A stretch of 34,347 nt of DNA, taken from contig CALJDK010000070.1 in assembly GCA_938023735.1 (NCBI GenBank), forward strand, positions 1-34,347, in the 5' to 3' direction. The stretch is from an uncultured Acidimicrobiales bacterium (lineage in GTDB: Bacteria > Actinomycetota > Acidimicrobiia > Acidimicrobiales > SHLQ01). The number at the start of each line of letters is the position of its first letter. Within the stretch, counting starts at the first letter, position 1. Position numbers and translations under genes: made by a program. Under the pieces are notes generated by a model. It did not search any database, was not told the origin of the DNA, and worked only from the letters and a program-made list of their open reading frames with translations. Positions 24,250 to 32,043 of the stretch are shown piece after piece.

Positions 24250-26322
24250 GTGAAAAAAGCCGGCATCATCGTTTCTGCCCTCCTCGTCCTCGGACTCGGC
24301 GCATTCTTCACCCAGGATCAATGGGCCTGGTACCTCGAAGACGACACCGTGGTCGAGGAAGCCGTCGAGGCACCCGAGCTTGACGACCAGGTTGAAGCCG
24401 GCGACCGATTGTTCCGCATCGACCCCACCCAATCGTCGGCCTCGTACGCCGTCGGCGAACGACTGGCTGGCCAAGACCGCGGCGTTGCCGTCGGCACCAC
24501 CACTGCACTTGGTGGCGACATCGTGCTCGGGGCCAACCCGGCCGACAGCCAAGTAGGCACCATCGTCATCAACGTCGAGCTCTTCAAAAGCGACAACAAC
24601 CTGCGCGACAAACGAATCCGTCATGACTTTCTCGAGTCCAGCCACTTCCGATTCGTCGAGTTCGAACCGACCGCAATCGATGGTCTCCCCGACGAAGTCG
24701 TGGAGGGAACCGACTATCGCATCGAAATCACTGGAAACCTCACGGTAAAGGAAACCACCAACGAGGAAACCTTCGCCGGAACCGTGCGCCTTATGGGCGA
24801 TGCACTCTCCGCCACCATGACCGCCAACGTGCTCATGAGCACCTACGACGTCGGGCCGATCAGCGTGATGGCACTGGTGACCACCGACGACGAGATCGAG
24901 CTCACCCTCGACCTCGTTGCCCTCGATGAGTCCACCGGCGACATGCCACGCGACCCAGCCACCAACGTGGTGGCCACCGACCAACTCGTCTCCGACACCA
25001 CCGCCAACTTCAGCACCGACGTGCTGCCGATCATCGAAGACCGCTGCGCCTCATGCCACGTGGCCGGGGGCATTGGCTGGCAAACCATGCCGCTCGAAAC
25101 GGTCGGCGATGTGGCTGCGATCGCCGATGGCATCGCCGTCGTCACCACCAGCGGCTACATGCCGCCATGGCCAGCATCCGACCAGAGCGTGCCGTTCCAG
25201 CACGACTGGTCGCTCACTCCCGACCAGGTAACAACCCTTGCCACCTGGAGCTCAGCCGGTGGGGCCATCGATATCGATGCCAGCCAGCCACTCGTGGCAA
25301 CTAGCCAGGCATTCGAGCCGCTCGACGAAGACATGGTGCTTCGCCAAGCAGAACCCTACGCCGGCGACCCCGACGTCAAAGACGACTACCGCTGCCAGAT
25401 CCTCGATCCGCAACTCACCGAAACCGCGTGGGTAAAGGGTTACCACTTTGCGCCCGAAATCGAAGAGGTCCACCACGTCATCGTCTCGAAGGGTTCCGCC
25501 GCCGCCCGCGCCCAAGCCGAAAAGCTCGACGGCGCCGACGGCAAGCCAGGCTGGACCTGCTACGGACTTACCGGAATCCGCGAAGGCGTGAGCAGCTTCG
25601 GTGGTTGGGTTCCCGGCCAGGCACCCGAGATTTACCCCGAGGGCGTGGGCCGCCGCATGGAGCCCGGCGATTTCCTCATCGTGCAAACCCACTTCCACTA
25701 CGACCACGATGCCCCGGCCGATAACTCGCCGATGATGATCGACTTTGCCGAAGAGGGCGAGACCGAAGGACTTCGCAACATCCGCGGCAACACCTCGATC
25801 ACGCCAGTCGAAATCCCCTGCTACGAGGAAGATCAGAACAACCCCGAGTACGCCGAGGCCTGTAAGCGCAGCACCGAACTGGCCCGAGTTGCCGAGGTGT
25901 TCCCGCCGATTGGGCATCTCATCCCTGACTTCGCCAACCGGGCCTGCGGTGTCACTCCGGGAGACTTTGCGCACATGAACCAAGGCGTGGCGTCGTCCTC
26001 CTGCGATCTCACCGCCGACCTGAACGGGCAGCTGTATTCGGTGCTCGGCCACATGCACGAGCTCGGCACTTCGTACCGGATGACCCTCAACCCCGACACC
26101 CCTGAAGAGCGCATTCTGCTCGACATTCCACGCTGGACTTTCGAGTGGCAGCTCAGCTACAAGCCCATCGAAGTTATCGACATCAACGCCGACGACATTA
26201 TCCGCTTCGAGTGCAGTTGGGATCGCTCGCTGCAGCCCACTTGGGAGCCGCGCTACATCCTGTGGTCCGAGGGCACACAGGACGAAATGTGCTTCTCCAC
26301 CATCGCTGTCATTCCCGAATAA
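24250..26322 (+). CDS. Exported YceI - cytochrome c-like - copper type II monooxygenase-like fusion protein
   Basis: This is a 690-residue multidomain protein. An N-terminal hydrophobic segment (about 5-20) after KK is a signal or anchor. Residues 53-225 resemble YceI lipocalin-like proteins (FRIDPTQSSASYAVGE, RIRHDFLESSHFRFVEFEPT, ITGNLTVKETT). A c-type heme motif C266-A-S-C269-H270 follows, with MPPWP (304-308) as a possible Met-ligand region. The last 300 residues resemble peptidylglycine monooxygenase/DBH: H408-H409 (EEVHHVIV), H481/H483 (QTHFHYDH), H601/H603 (GHMHELG) and Met680 (DEMCFSTI). These match both copper sites, CuH and CuM. The start is GTG with GGAG five bases upstream. Cytochrome-plus-monooxygenase pairs exist elsewhere; the added YceI domain is unusual to me. 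The substrate is unknown. Confidence 0.8.
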   Translation: MKKAGIIVSALLVLGLGAFFTQDQWAWYLEDDTVVEEAVEAPELDDQVEAGDRLFRIDPTQSSASYAVGERLAGQDRGVAVGTTTALGGDIVLGANPADSQVGTIVINVELFKSDNNLRDKRIRHDFLESSHFRFVEFEPTAIDGLPDEVVEGTDYRIEITGNLTVKETTNEETFAGTVRLMGDALSATMTANVLMSTYDVGPISVMALVTTDDEIELTLDLVALDESTGDMPRDPATNVVATDQLVSDTTANFSTDVLPIIEDRCASCHVAGGIGWQTMPLETVGDVAAIADGIAVVTTSGYMPPWPASDQSVPFQHDWSLTPDQVTTLATWSSAGGAIDIDASQPLVATSQAFEPLDEDMVLRQAEPYAGDPDVKDDYRCQILDPQLTETAWVKGYHFAPEIEEVHHVIVSKGSAAARAQAEKLDGADGKPGWTCYGLTGIREGVSSFGGWVPGQAPEIYPEGVGRRMEPGDFLIVQTHFHYDHDAPADNSPMMIDFAEEGETEGLRNIRGNTSITPVEIPCYEEDQNNPEYAEACKRSTELARVAEVFPPIGHLIPDFANRACGVTPGDFAHMNQGVASSSCDLTADLNGQLYSVLGHMHELGTSYRMTLNPDTPEERILLDIPRWTFEWQLSYKPIEVIDINADDIIRFECSWDRSLQPTWEPRYILWSEGTQDEMCFSTIAVIPE

Positions 26323-28048: not shown

Positions 28049-28825
28049 TCAGCCCGGGTGTGCGGCGCCGCCATCGATAGGAACGGTCATGCCCGTGAGG
28101 TACCGAGCATCGTCGGATGCAAGGAACACGGCCACCTTGCCGATATCGGTTTCGGGGTCGCCAAAACGCGCCATAGGGATGTCGGCGATAACCCGGGCGT
28201 AGGCCTCGGGGTCGGCAGCTTCAAAGTCAATGAGCGCAGGCGAGGTGGCCAACGGCAACAACGCAAACGTTCGGATGCCGTCGGGCGCCCACTCCCACGC
28301 GGCGGTGCGGGTAAGAACCCGAATCGACTCCTTCACCGACGCGTACGGGCCACAGTGGATCGGGTCGGACTTCACGCCCGAGCGGCTGCCAAGGTTCATC
28401 ACGACTCCCCCGCCTTCCGCCGTGCTGGCCTTGAGGTGCGGATGACAGAGCTGCATGAAACGCAGCGAGGCCAACGGACCCGACTCCCAGCTGACCGCCA
28501 TGTCATCGTCGGTGACCTCGAGCAATGGGCCTCGCACCACCTGCTGTGCGTTGTTCACGAGTATGTCGATGCCGCCAAACGTGTCGGCGGTCTGCTGCAC
28601 ACATGCTTCGATGTCGGCGCGGTCTTTGACATCGCATCGCACCGCAAGCGCGTGGCCGTTGCGTTCGGTGATCTCGGCAGCCACCGCCTCACACTTTGCG
28701 AGCGTGCGACCGGCCAACACCACCCTGGCTCCGGCGTCGGCCATCGCCAACGCAATACCTCGACCAACGCCCTGCCCGGCGCCGGTAATGAGCGCGATCC
28801 GTCCGTCGAGCACCGGCGCGGTCAT
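28049..28825 (-). CDS. Short-chain dehydrogenase/reductase (operon third gene)
   Basis: This is a 258-residue classical SDR. The dinucleotide loop TGAGQGVG lies at 14-21, and NNAQ stands in place of NNAG. The catalytic Ser is in NLGSRSGV and Tyr/Lys are in YASVKES. The C terminus has YLTGMTVPIDGG. It probably oxidises or reduces a hydroxyl or oxo intermediate with NAD(P). Its ATG overlaps the stop of the LLM oxidoreductase gene by four bases (ATGA at 28825-28822), so it is the third gene of a coupled SDR-LLM-SDR operon. The segment DFEAADPEAYARVIADIPMARFGDPETDIG resembles actinobacterial steroid/lipid SDRs. Confidence 0.86.
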   Translation of the reverse strand: MTAPVLDGRIALITGAGQGVGRGIALAMADAGARVVLAGRTLAKCEAVAAEITERNGHALAVRCDVKDRADIEACVQQTADTFGGIDILVNNAQQVVRGPLLEVTDDDMAVSWESGPLASLRFMQLCHPHLKASTAEGGGVVMNLGSRSGVKSDPIHCGPYASVKESIRVLTRTAAWEWAPDGIRTFALLPLATSPALIDFEAADPEAYARVIADIPMARFGDPETDIGKVAVFLASDDARYLTGMTVPIDGGAAHPG

Positions 28826-29802
28826 CGGGCCTCGATTGCGTCGATGGCGTCGCGGAAGAGCGCCAGATTCTGACCGTACATATCGAGTTGTCCTTCTACT
28901 TGCTGCGGGCTGAGTCCTTTGACGTGAACCCTGATGTTGATGGTGTCGCAGTTGGAGGCCGCCATCACCTCGGCGAGACGACTTGCCGCTTCCTCGGCCG
29001 TCTGACCGATGATCAGTTGATCGCCAGCCCCCCAGTTGGATTGGGCTTTGTCGCTTGCGTAGCTCCGGTAGTGCGCCATCTGGGCCGCCATCTCGTCGGT
29101 TGGTGCGTCGCCTACCCAGACCCGGCGAATCAGAATTTTGGCGTTGGTGCCGCCCGCTTCGTCGTAGGTATCGGAGAGTTTCTTGGAAACCTCGGACCCT
29201 TGAATCGAGTCGTACAGAACGGCCAGATCGTGCTTGGCCGCCCGGCGTACCGCAGCTCCGCTTTGGGTCCCCACCGCCATCGGCAGAGGCTCGGCGGCGA
29301 GCATTCGGACCGCCCGGTCGTTCCCGAGGGGCGTTGGGTCACTGCCTCGAAGAGCCGAAACGGTGGGCGGAAGCGCATCTTTGAACCGCTGGATAATTTC
29401 GTCGAACGGCACCTCGGCCAACTCGAAGTCCACCGGCAATGCGCCAGCAGCGAACCCCGCACCAACCCGGCCCGGGTACGCGGCCGCCATCCATGCCAGG
29501 TCTTCGACGATGAGCGCGTAGGGCTTCATGGGTAGCAGCAGCGGACATGGCGCCGCCCAGCCTCGGGGCATCGCGTCGAGCAGAAACCCGGCCAACTGAA
29601 TCGGGTTGGGCAAGTATCCGGGGAAGTCTGCGTGGTGCTCGGAAACCATCACGCCATCGAACCCAGCCTCGGCGGCATGGCGGGCTTGCTCACGAAGCAG
29701 ACGAACCTGCTCGGCAGCCGGCAGATCGTGCGGATACAACCGCAGCGAAATCGACCTAGCCGCAAGCGGTGTGGGTGATTCAGACTCAGGTGCATCAATC
29801 AT
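28822..29802 (-). CDS. LLM class flavin-dependent oxidoreductase
   Basis: This 326-residue luciferase-like monooxygenase family protein has ARHAAEAGFDGVMVSEHHADFPGYLPNP near the N terminus (the usual SEHH element). LLLPMKPYALIVEDLAWMAAAYPGRVGAGFAAG follows, which is the flavin-binding barrel core. The C terminus is helical. These TIM-barrel enzymes use FMNH2 or F420H2, and actinobacterial members often act in steroid, hydrocarbon or coenzyme F420 reactions; which cofactor applies here is not visible. It overlaps both neighbours by four bases, so the three proteins are probably made in equal amounts and act on one pathway. Confidence 0.85.
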   Translation of the reverse strand: MIDAPESESPTPLAARSISLRLYPHDLPAAEQVRLLREQARHAAEAGFDGVMVSEHHADFPGYLPNPIQLAGFLLDAMPRGWAAPCPLLLPMKPYALIVEDLAWMAAAYPGRVGAGFAAGALPVDFELAEVPFDEIIQRFKDALPPTVSALRGSDPTPLGNDRAVRMLAAEPLPMAVGTQSGAAVRRAAKHDLAVLYDSIQGSEVSKKLSDTYDEAGGTNAKILIRRVWVGDAPTDEMAAQMAHYRSYASDKAQSNWGAGDQLIIGQTAEEAASRLAEVMAASNCDTINIRVHVKGLSPQQVEGQLDMYGQNLALFRDAIDAIEAR

Positions 29803-30626
29803 TCAAAGCGCTCCCGAATAGCGGGGTTGGTGACAAACACCGGCAGGCCGCTCGGCGCCAGACCTGCTCGGCTTGGTCCACCATCGACATCGATGGTCTG
29901 CCCGGAAATATAGGAAGCCATGTCGGAGAGGAGAAAGAGGACCGCATCGGCGATGTCGTCGGGTGTGCCTCGGCGACCCAGGGCAATGGCCTTGCTGGCC
30001 TCATCGATATCTCCAGGTTTGCGACCCGAGCGGGGCGTGTTGATCGTTCCGGGGGCCACTCCGTTAACTCGAATGCCATAGCGACCCCACTCACTGGCCA
30101 TCGCCCGGCCCAGCGAGTCGAGTCCGGCCTTTGCTGCGCCATATCCCGAAAGCAGCGGTTGGCCCTTGCTGGCAATCGACGAAATGTTCACCATCGAACC
30201 CGGCCGGCCCGCCTCGATGAGGCCCTTTGCCACCTGCTGGCACGACACGAGGGCGTACCGCAGATTCACGGTGAGCAGATGATCGAGCGACTCCATCGGG
30301 TAGTCCTCGAGTCGGTGCCAGTACTGCGGCGTGGCGCCGCCTACCACGTTCACTACCCCATCGATTATCCCCAGCGCCCCAGCGCCAGCATCGATCGCGG
30401 CGCGCAAGGCTTCGGTGTCGGCCACATCGACAACTTCGGCATGAACCCATTGTCCGCGCTCGGTCACCTCGGCGGCCACGGTGTCGAGATGCTCGGCATC
30501 GTTTCCGACCGCAACCACGTCGGCGCCCGCCTCGGCCAGGCGGTGGCATACCGAGCTACCGATACCGCCGCCACCTGCGCCCACGACCAGAACCACTCGG
30601 TCGTTCAGAGAAAGAGTCACCGTCAT
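29799..30626 (-). CDS. Short-chain dehydrogenase/reductase (operon first gene)
   Basis: This is a 275-residue SDR with start ATG 30626 (MTVTLSLND); the longer open frame runs into the opposing promoter. The dinucleotide loop is VGAGGGGIG (15-23), a Gly-rich variant of TGxxxGIG. NVVGG stands in the NNAG position, then the catalytic Ser in NISSIASK and Tyr/Lys in GYGAAKAG. The C-terminal tail after DVDGG is longer than usual (about 20 residues). It is the first gene of the minus-strand SDR-LLM-SDR operon and shares a 142-base regulatory region with the divergent amidohydrolase. Confidence 0.85.
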   Translation of the reverse strand: MTVTLSLNDRVVLVVGAGGGGIGSSVCHRLAEAGADVVAVGNDAEHLDTVAAEVTERGQWVHAEVVDVADTEALRAAIDAGAGALGIIDGVVNVVGGATPQYWHRLEDYPMESLDHLLTVNLRYALVSCQQVAKGLIEAGRPGSMVNISSIASKGQPLLSGYGAAKAGLDSLGRAMASEWGRYGIRVNGVAPGTINTPRSGRKPGDIDEASKAIALGRRGTPDDIADAVLFLLSDMASYISGQTIDVDGGPSRAGLAPSGLPVFVTNPAIRERFE

Positions 30627-30731
30627 CGCGCCGACGATAACCCACGCTGATCGAGCGATCGAAGAAACAACGGTGCAGGAAAAGGCCCGCGAAAGGTGCG
30701 CACGTCGCAGTTGAGGTGAGAAGGTAGCAAC

Positions 30732-30745
30732 CAGAACGTGTTCTA
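30732..30745. promoter_or_regulatory. KstR-like TetR operator in a divergent promoter region
   Basis: CAGAACGTGTTCTA matches the mycobacterial KstR consensus TNNAACNNGTTNNA at every fixed position but the first (C for T), with AGAAC/GTTCT inverted arms. It lies 24 bases before the ATG of the amidohydrolase at 30769 and about 105 bases before the divergent SDR start. Other TetR proteins use similar sites, so the regulator's identity is inferred. Confidence 0.5.
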
Positions 30746-30768
30746 GTACCGCGACAAGAGAGCAAACC

Positions 30769-32043
30769 ATGAGCGACATCACCTCGCCTACCGATCCCTA
30801 CATCGTCGTTTCGAGCGATACCCACGCTGGCCTCAACTGCGAGGAATATCGCCCCTACCTCGACTCCTCGCTGCACGAAGAGTTCGATCAATACGTCGCC
30901 GAACGCCACGAGCACCGACGCATCGCCGAAGAGGTCAACGCCGACTTCATCCAGCAGTGGGAGGGCGACAACGCCGAAGGTCTTCGCGGCGCCTACGACC
31001 CTGAGGTTCGCGACAAAGAACTCGACGCCGACGGCATCTCCGGCGAGGTCATCTTCGCCGACGGCGATGCGGTAACCGGCCAGGAGTCGCCACCATTCGG
31101 CGCTGGTTTGGCCGCTGGCCAGATCACCGACCCGAAGAAGGCATTCGGTGGCGCCCGAGCCCACAACCGTTGGCTCGAAGAGTTCTGCGCCACCAACCCC
31201 GCTCGCCGAGCCGGCGTGGCCCTGGTACCGATCACTCATGGCGTCGAAGAGTCGGTGAAAGAAATCGAAGCCCTCGCCGGCAAGCCCGGCATCAAGGGAA
31301 TCATGGTGCCAACAATGTGGCACGGGTTCCCCGCCTACGGCAGCGGCCACTACGACAAGGTGTGGGCCGCCTGCGCCGAAGCCGGCCTGGTCGTGCACAC
31401 CCACTCGGGCGAAGCCGACTTCGAGAGCTACGGCGACAACGTTGCCATGTACATCCGCGAAGTCCCGTTCTGGACCCACCGCATCCTTTGGCAGCTGCTG
31501 TTCTCGGGCAAGTTCGACCAGTTCCCCAACCTCAAATACGCGGTGGTCGAGTGCGGCTCGTTCTGGGTGGGCGACATCCTCTGGAAGGCCGACGTCAACT
31601 TCGGCGCCAGCAACAAGATCAAGAAAATGGGCTCGCGCATGAAGGGTCTCATCAGCCGCCTGCCGTCGGAGTACTTCGGCAGCAACGTGTTCATCGGCGC
31701 ATCCACCATGAGCAAAGAAGAGATCCGCCGCCGCCAGGTCAACGGCATCGACGCCCTCATGTGGGGCACCGACTATCCGCACCCCGAGGGTTCGTGGCCT
31801 CACACCCGCGAGCGTCTCGAGAACGACTTCCGCGACGTATCGATCGAAGACACCCGCCGACTTCTTGGCCTCAACGCCGTCGAGTGTTACGACCTCGATC
31901 TGGCCGGCCTCACCGAAATCGCCGCCAAGATCGGACCCACCCCCGAGTCGCTTCACCAGGACCCGAACTTGCGCACCGAACCCGAGGCGCAGCGCAAGGC
32001 CCGCTGGTGGCTCGACGAGTACGGCTGCGAAATGCAGTACTAG
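30769..32043 (+). CDS. Amidohydrolase-2 (PF04909/ACMSD-like) family protein, copy 1
   Basis: This 424-residue TIM-barrel metal hydrolase begins with YIVVSSDTHAG, where D17-T-H19 stands for the usual HxH metal pair. VVHTHSGE supplies a later metal-binding His, and MWGTDYPHPEG carries the conserved catalytic or metal Asp. The same plan occurs in 2-amino-3-carboxymuconate semialdehyde decarboxylase and many actinobacterial catabolic hydrolases. Substrate is not predictable, but its operator and neighbours suggest a lipid or steroid-like breakdown path. It is followed after 31 bases by a second copy. A probable AAGAG site lies about 9 bases before the ATG. Confidence 0.82.
   Translation: MSDITSPTDPYIVVSSDTHAGLNCEEYRPYLDSSLHEEFDQYVAERHEHRRIAEEVNADFIQQWEGDNAEGLRGAYDPEVRDKELDADGISGEVIFADGDAVTGQESPPFGAGLAAGQITDPKKAFGGARAHNRWLEEFCATNPARRAGVALVPITHGVEESVKEIEALAGKPGIKGIMVPTMWHGFPAYGSGHYDKVWAACAEAGLVVHTHSGEADFESYGDNVAMYIREVPFWTHRILWQLLFSGKFDQFPNLKYAVVECGSFWVGDILWKADVNFGASNKIKKMGSRMKGLISRLPSEYFGSNVFIGASTMSKEEIRRRQVNGIDALMWGTDYPHPEGSWPHTRERLENDFRDVSIEDTRRLLGLNAVECYDLDLAGLTEIAAKIGPTPESLHQDPNLRTEPEAQRKARWWLDEYGCEMQY

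Follow-up and report, generated by a model that had tools for sequence, protein, structure and literature searches.

The window, a 34,347-nucleotide stretch of DNA from an uncultured Acidimicrobiales bacterium, contains on the forward strand at 24250..26322 a reading frame with a GTG start, exact at both ends, that encodes a 690-amino-acid fusion of YceI, heme c and PHM/DBH-like dicopper parts. From the N terminus, a membrane anchor is followed by a YceI barrel, a mono-heme c domain and a dicopper module of PHM/DBH type. This three-domain architecture had been proposed in a sequence-only reading of the same DNA and proved right: the YceI match lies above its cut-off, and the copper and heme motifs are conserved. 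With E values up to 10, Pfam matched four families in total in the window protein.

To place the fusion among its relatives, we used genome contigs, the scan of which returned 34 related loci, together with a sample of the window's class (395 genomes). The resulting alignment of 57 rows comprises 33 fusions including that of the window, 19 heme-copper proteins without YceI and 5 copper-only proteins, and stands without the core proteins L013 and L034 and the copper-only L016. Three relatives keep the frame of the fusion at 87, 77 and 66% identity; together with its recurrence in the 33 fusions, this rules out a chance frame or frame artefact.

Residues 2-20 (24253..24309, + strand) form a hydrophobic helix by hydropathy and in the AlphaFold model, followed by DQWxW, and are probably an uncleaved membrane anchor. 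An N-terminal hydrophobic stretch is present in all 33 fusions, with QWxW next to it in several, and a pattern search of the N termini found a lipobox in none of them (0/33). The same pattern was found in 14 of the 19 unfused heme-copper proteins and in all 5 copper-only proteins. Because the fusions have a helix and most of the YceI-less proteins a lipobox, most forms of the family seem to be tethered to the outer side of the membrane, though not all in the same way.

The YceI barrel

The lipocalin-like YceI barrel occupies residues 55-224 (24412..24921, + strand) and was recovered by Pfam, Foldseek and VIA. Pfam matched YceI (PF04264) over these residues with an E value of 1.3e-15 and a score of 58.5 bits (cut-off 23.7), so that the assignment, which could have fallen away in profile searches, held. 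Pfam YceI was matched at E≤0.001 in 33 of the 57 aligned family members, and residues S62, S114, D115, R119, D120, G202, P203 and I204 are invariant in the 33 fusions. In structural alignments with VIA-align, the barrel matched BcnB (5ixg, Z 17.7), TT1927b (1wub, Z 17.4), BcnA (5ixh, Z 17.4) and the Saccharophagus X158 domain (Z 15.8). Foldseek likewise returned 1wub (E 1.9e-9) and, further, BcnA and 2x32/2x34. YceI structures contain ubiquinone-8 or octaprenyl compounds, according to the available text of PMC9113575.

The heme c domain

Between the barrel and the copper module lies a mono-heme c-type cytochrome domain (about residues 250-345; 24997..25284, + strand), identified by Cytochrome_CBB3 and by profile matches in the PDB. 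The heme attachment motif C266-A-S-C269-H270 (CASCH; 25045..25059, +) had been correctly pointed out before, and C266, C269 and H270 are conserved in 52/52 heme-bearing rows. Beyond that earlier account, all 52 rows also conserve Met304 in a YMPPW motif (25159..25161, +), the probable distal heme ligand. Both hallmarks of class I c-type cytochromes, CxxCH and a distal Met, are thus found in every heme-bearing row, and both the CxxCH His and the distal Met are absent from the five copper-only rows. In class I cytochromes c, a Met distal ligand goes with electron transfer and not with O2 binding, and Met304 therefore points to electron transfer as the role of this heme.

In the whole window protein, Cytochrome_CBB3 matched residues 263-310 at E 0.024, under the Pfam cut-off; when the domain was scanned alone, 51 of 52 members matched at E≤0.01. 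A profile of the cytochrome domain found in the PDB the alpha subunit of hydrazine synthase (9.8e-8) and cytochrome c 8yts (7.6e-4). Modelled alone, the domain reached a pLDDT of 82.2, and a Foldseek search with this model gave no match at E≤0.001. The VIA fold search was weak, with five chains at Z≥2 and a best Z of 4.9; the four entries among the VIA matches listed for the domain are all c-type heme proteins.

One fusion departs from this pattern. Locus L093:1423-3348 (− strand; genome G632) encodes a YceI-copper fusion in which an in-frame gap of about 65 amino acids takes away the CxxCH half. This protein (L093/P0002), from a metagenome-assembled genome (MAG) of the Gemmatimonadota class, keeps YceI and all copper motifs despite the missing CxxCH. 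It reflects either a true loss or an assembly fault and, if real, counts against an obligatory heme.

The dicopper module

The C-terminal half consists of a first copper domain resembling the N-terminal domain of PHM (about residues 359-512; 25324..25785, + strand) and a second resembling its C-terminal domain (about residues 513-690; 25786..26319, +), both placed by fold and by profile alignment to PHM. The CuH ligands are H408 and H409 (25471..25476, +) and H481 (25690..25692, +), which we take to be H107, H108 and H172 of PHM; the CuM ligands are H601 and H603 in HMH (26050..26058, +) and M680 in T-x-DEMC (26287..26289, +). All six had been numbered exactly in the sequence-only reading, align with PHM and are conserved in 57/57 rows.

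Taken alone, the copper module appears to be a weak match because its Pfam scores in the window protein are below threshold: Cu2_monooxygen on residues 374-483 (E 0.051) and Cu2_monoox_C on 594-683 (E 0.086) both fall under the cut-off. A phmmer search of the PDB with the single window protein also gave no match at E≤1. The profile of the 57 relatives matched PHM (1opm, 9.1e-11) and DBH (4zel, 3.4e-9) in the PDB, as well as E. coli YceI (1.8e-7), TT1927b (2.5e-6) and, at a CxxCH stretch, the hydrazine synthase alpha subunit (1.7e-5). In the profile alignment, the VHH, QxH, HxH and T-DEMC motifs fall on the copper-ligand motifs of PHM. Cu2_monoox_C was found at E≤0.001 in 34 of the 57 members, and over the cut-off in P0002 and L089.

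An AlphaFold model of the window protein built on the 57-row alignment (pLDDT 89.8, pTM 0.80) returned DBH first in Foldseek (9.9e-15), PHM next (3.0e-12) and then YceI proteins. VIA-align superposed it on PHM (6ala) with a Z of 21.6 over 256 residues at 2.7 Å and ~17% identity, and on DBH (4zel) with a Z of 21.4 over 302 residues at 3.4 Å. The copper ligands, which might have failed to converge in a predicted structure, lie in a module that superposes on PHM, and the PHM-type two-domain beta fold, the three-His CuH site and the two-His-one-Met CuM site are all present. The PHM/DBH-type copper module is real despite its sub-threshold Pfam scores.

Besides the ligands, Y380, C382, C437, Q479, C655 and C681 are conserved in all 57 rows, and Gln479 and Tyr380 align with residues adjoining the ligand motifs of PHM. 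Eight cysteines in addition to the heme pair are invariant in the 33 fusions; cysteines 524, 538, 566 and 585, present in 33/33 fusions, occur in 9/19 unfused heme-copper rows.

The substrate pocket differs from that of PHM, in which R240, N316 and Y318 presumably anchor the peptide carboxylate. At the aligned positions, the window protein has L599 (with neighbours V598 and G600), F682 and T684. Among the six commonest residues per group, Arg is absent from positions 598-600 and Asn from 682, and Tyr at 684 occurs only in 3 of the 19 unfused rows; in the 33 fusions, position 682 is always F, Y or L, and T, S, P or A occupies 684. The absence of the carboxylate anchors rules out peptide amidation, that is, a PHM proper. 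As these anchors have no counterparts, the alignment indicates that the protein most likely combines metal sites of the PHM/DBH superfamily with a different substrate.

Distribution and history of the family

Of the 395 class genomes sampled, at least 30 have the fusion: in 27, a single match spans most of the query, and in three (G036, G142, G162) one frame is matched in two pieces. It also occurs in a few MAGs of Gemmatimonadota, Rhodothermota and Acidobacteriota. Its occurrence in these class genomes and in other phyla rules out an assembly chimera. At E≤1e-40, the class to which the Gemmatimonadetes MAG belongs gave matches in 4/246 genomes, with a heme-less protein in one of them, that of the Rhodothermales MAG in 1/244 and that of genome G397 in 1/148. 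In the sample of the window's phylum, 11/396 genomes had matches at this threshold; these include unfused proteins and all come from the order of the window.

Heme-copper cores without YceI include a paralogue in the window genome (L002) and relatives in Myxococcota and Acidobacteriota. Expansion of the core was seen in Nannocystis pusilla (L017, G399; 19 matched pieces) and in a Vicinamibacteraceae MAG (L036, G397; 25 pieces), which correspond to fewer genes as some pieces share one gene. In G397, a second copy of the fusion (L036:162-1750) is split into several frames and is apparently decayed or badly assembled. The copper-only lipoproteins of Nonomuraea and Thermoactinospora (L018, L022, L024, L025, L026) have full dicopper ligands and no heme motif.

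In a 63-row tree built from the heme-copper core without the YceI columns, unfused Acidimicrobiales lipoproteins nest inside the fused group. A single clade of all 37 fused rows was rejected (p-AU 0.0009) in a 'quick' tree of 61 rows from which the long-branch rows L031 and L019 had been dropped, the nesting having been observed before the test. In a tree of the YceI domain, a branch (support 86, not starred) separates all 38 fused domains from 19 stand-alone ones; usable domains came from 19 of the 22 stand-alone loci, L003, L004 and L114 being unmatched at 1e-3. Taken together, the two trees lead us to favour a single old fusion with later loss of YceI in the lipoprotein paralogues; repeated gain of YceI is the less favoured alternative. 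The pairing of YceI with heme and copper thus looks old and kept.

Six non-actinobacterial fusions, from the Vicinamibacteraceae, Rhodothermales and Gemmatimonadetes MAGs and G397, G551 and G764, form one group in the core tree with a support of 100. As this group spans different phyla, it suggests horizontal transfer of the non-actinobacterial fusions.

Gene neighbourhood

Open reading frames around the fusions were called by a rule based on GC content at codon positions, as calling the longest frame in these GC-rich genomes produced antisense frames. A peptidoglycan-binding/GH19-like protein is encoded by the gene preceding the fusion in the window and in three close relatives. Of 20 neighbourhoods retrieved, 5 have a cytochrome c maturation (Ccm) cluster immediately before the fusion on the same strand, with a gap of -17 to 82 bp; CcmF, CcmH and the thioredoxin-like CcmG were matched in these clusters, CcmE was recognized by eye and a TPR protein was also present. 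Two other genomes (G305, G271) of the same family, f7, have CcmF no more than 10 kb away from the fusion; the adjacency is confined to this family. In the window genome, CcmF is on another contig.

Presence of CcmF does not discriminate as a test of heme attachment, as the gene is near-universal with or without the fusion. It was found in 56/58 genomes overall: in 29/30 with the fusion, 11/11 with unfused heme-copper proteins, 12/13 with copper-only proteins and 4/4 with neither. In a separate set of genomes reached through other loci, 8/9 had it. Given this near-universal presence, the Ccm genes only permit heme attachment to the fusion. The neighbours gave no clue to the substrate; beyond the close relatives, what the neighbourhoods have in common is mainly the Ccm cluster of f7. 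At three non-actinobacterial loci (L009:5405-5932, L010:4993-5787, L039:5149-5802), a small charged protein without a Pfam match, probably secreted, is encoded 24-99 bp upstream of the fusion.

Proposed electron supply and substrate

We put at about even odds (a probability of roughly 0.5) a model where the fusion is a dicopper hydroxylase of the PHM/DBH superfamily that is anchored in the membrane, works outside the cytoplasm and is supplied with electrons internally, from quinol in YceI through the heme to copper. The YceI barrel would pick up an isoprenoid redox carrier from the membrane, either a quinol, presumably menaquinol in these Actinobacteria, or a different one. Single electrons would pass from the heme to CuH, and CuM would activate O2 and hydroxylate a C–H bond of a molecule other than a peptide with a C-terminal glycine. 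The animal PHM and DBH enzymes use ascorbate (vitamin C) as reductant, in the place of which quinol and heme would act here. More tentatively, and at somewhat short of even odds, the family may represent an ascorbate-independent bacterial branch of PHM/DBH in which menaquinol in YceI, heme c and the dicopper site follow one another on one polypeptide. Delivery of electrons from heme to copper, already considered in the sequence-only reading, is plausible by analogy with Cbp2D, one cytochrome domain of which reduces the copper of a lytic polysaccharide monooxygenase (LPMO), as stated in the available text of PMC8981238.

Several observations stand against such a hydroxylase with a built-in electron supply. 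The YceI-less paralogues and copper-only relatives imply that neither YceI nor heme is needed everywhere, the fusion L093/P0002 lacks the heme, and the fold search with the cytochrome domain remained weak (best Z 4.9). For YceI, the earlier suggestion had been a holder of either a substrate or an electron carrier. The evidence leans towards electron carrier or membrane coupling over substrate holder, as related heme-copper cores occur without YceI and the unfused paralogues inside the fused clade keep all heme and copper ligands. To call the enzyme a self-contained oxygenase, as had been done, was overstated, because the quinone or lipid needs reloading from the membrane.

The main rival to an oxygenase wired in this way is that the isoprenoid bound by YceI is itself the substrate: the copper site would hydroxylate a polyprenyl lipid, carotenoid or quinone, and the heme alone would be the point of electron entry. 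Replacement of the polar peptide anchors of PHM by apolar or small residues (F, Y or L at 682 in 33/33) suits an apolar substrate, and YceI proteins carry octaprenyl compounds, as the accessible part of PMC9113575 reports. However, same-order paralogues that lack YceI and are nested in the fused clade keep all heme-copper ligands, and the apolar replacements are seen in unfused and copper-only members too. We therefore regard YceI cargo as an unlikely substrate.

It is quite unlikely that the fusion serves envelope protection, with YceI carrying an antioxidant isoprenoid as proposed for BcnA and the heme-copper part detoxifying lipid peroxides or other oxidants. In the accessible part of PMC9113575, BcnA/LcoA, a YceI lipocalin with a cytochrome b561, is reported to detoxify lipid peroxyl radicals; the full dicopper monooxygenase site, strictly kept in 57/57 rows, speaks for O2 chemistry. 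Equally improbable is a role of YceI as a mere membrane-side spacer or lipid tether, with the heme fed by ordinary c-type cytochromes or the bc1 complex: a lipobox in 14/19 unfused proteins against 0/33 fusions might mean that YceI plus helix and a lipid anchor are interchangeable, yet a full barrel with eight invariant residues (33/33) exceeds the needs of a tether.

Relation to known systems

PHM (1phm/1opm/6ala) shares with the fusion the two-domain fold and the aligned CuH and CuM ligand motifs, but identity is ~17% and the fusion lacks the carboxylate anchors and has the extra heme c and YceI domains. DBH (4zel), the best Foldseek match, likewise has an extra N-terminal module before its copper domains. 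In DBH this module is a DOMON domain, whereas the fusion has YceI and heme c at this place, and DOMON is absent from the Pfam matches of the window protein at E values up to 10. The YceI-less heme-copper cores have identical heme c and dicopper residues (19/19) and differ from the fusion in lacking YceI and in being mostly lipoproteins (14/19).

Cbp2D of Cellvibrio contains a quinone-binding YceI-like domain and c-type cytochromes in one protein; reduction of LPMO copper by one of its cytochrome domains starts cellulose oxidation, and YceI-cytochrome proteins have been proposed as LPMO electron donors (PMC8981238, available text). Its physiological role is still debated, according to the accessible part of PMC12542752. 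Among Cbp2D/Cbp2E and the Saccharophagus X158 domain (2x32, 2x34), X158 matches the barrel of the fusion by fold, and Cbp2D resembles the fusion as an exported YceI-cytochrome c protein. As far as the available text describes it, Cbp2D also has CBM2 and FN3, and its partner would be a separate LPMO with a single copper. In contrast, the oxygenase of the window fusion is on the same chain and of the dicopper PHM/DBH type, and the Pfam matches (E up to 10) include no carbohydrate-binding module. BcnA and other YceI lipocalins with cytochrome b561 (LcoA) also pair a YceI barrel with a cytochrome, but from separate genes, with a b-type cytochrome and with no copper module in the accessible part of PMC9113575.

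Among the papers listed by searches of the open-licence literature, we found neither the combination of YceI, heme c and copper monooxygenase nor a description of the YceI-less heme-copper cores. The individual parts are known.

DBH converts dopamine to noradrenaline and PHM takes part in the finishing of hormones in humans. Standing questions for these enzymes are how electrons pass over the ~11 Å between the two coppers and which reductant serves PHM/DBH-type enzymes in organisms without ascorbate. If the ascorbate-independent reading is true, the fusion would to our knowledge be the first wired member of the superfamily and would place on a single chain the quinol-cytochrome route that has been proposed for LPMOs. 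A natural enzyme of this superfamily whose covalent heme is visible by spectroscopy would offer a direct handle on electron entry. It would also test YceI proteins as quinone carriers for extracytoplasmic oxygenases, an idea that has so far rested on Cbp2D and LPMOs. The substrate of the heme-copper family would represent new chemistry in the envelope of bacteria that are mostly uncultured.

Two further gene arrangements were seen in the window genome. On contig C61 (L003:1489-2983), two tandem YceI-like genes in overlapping frames are distant from the fused YceI. In the window itself, on the minus strand at 28049-30782, a luciferase-like monooxygenase gene lies between two short-chain dehydrogenase genes, probably as one operon.
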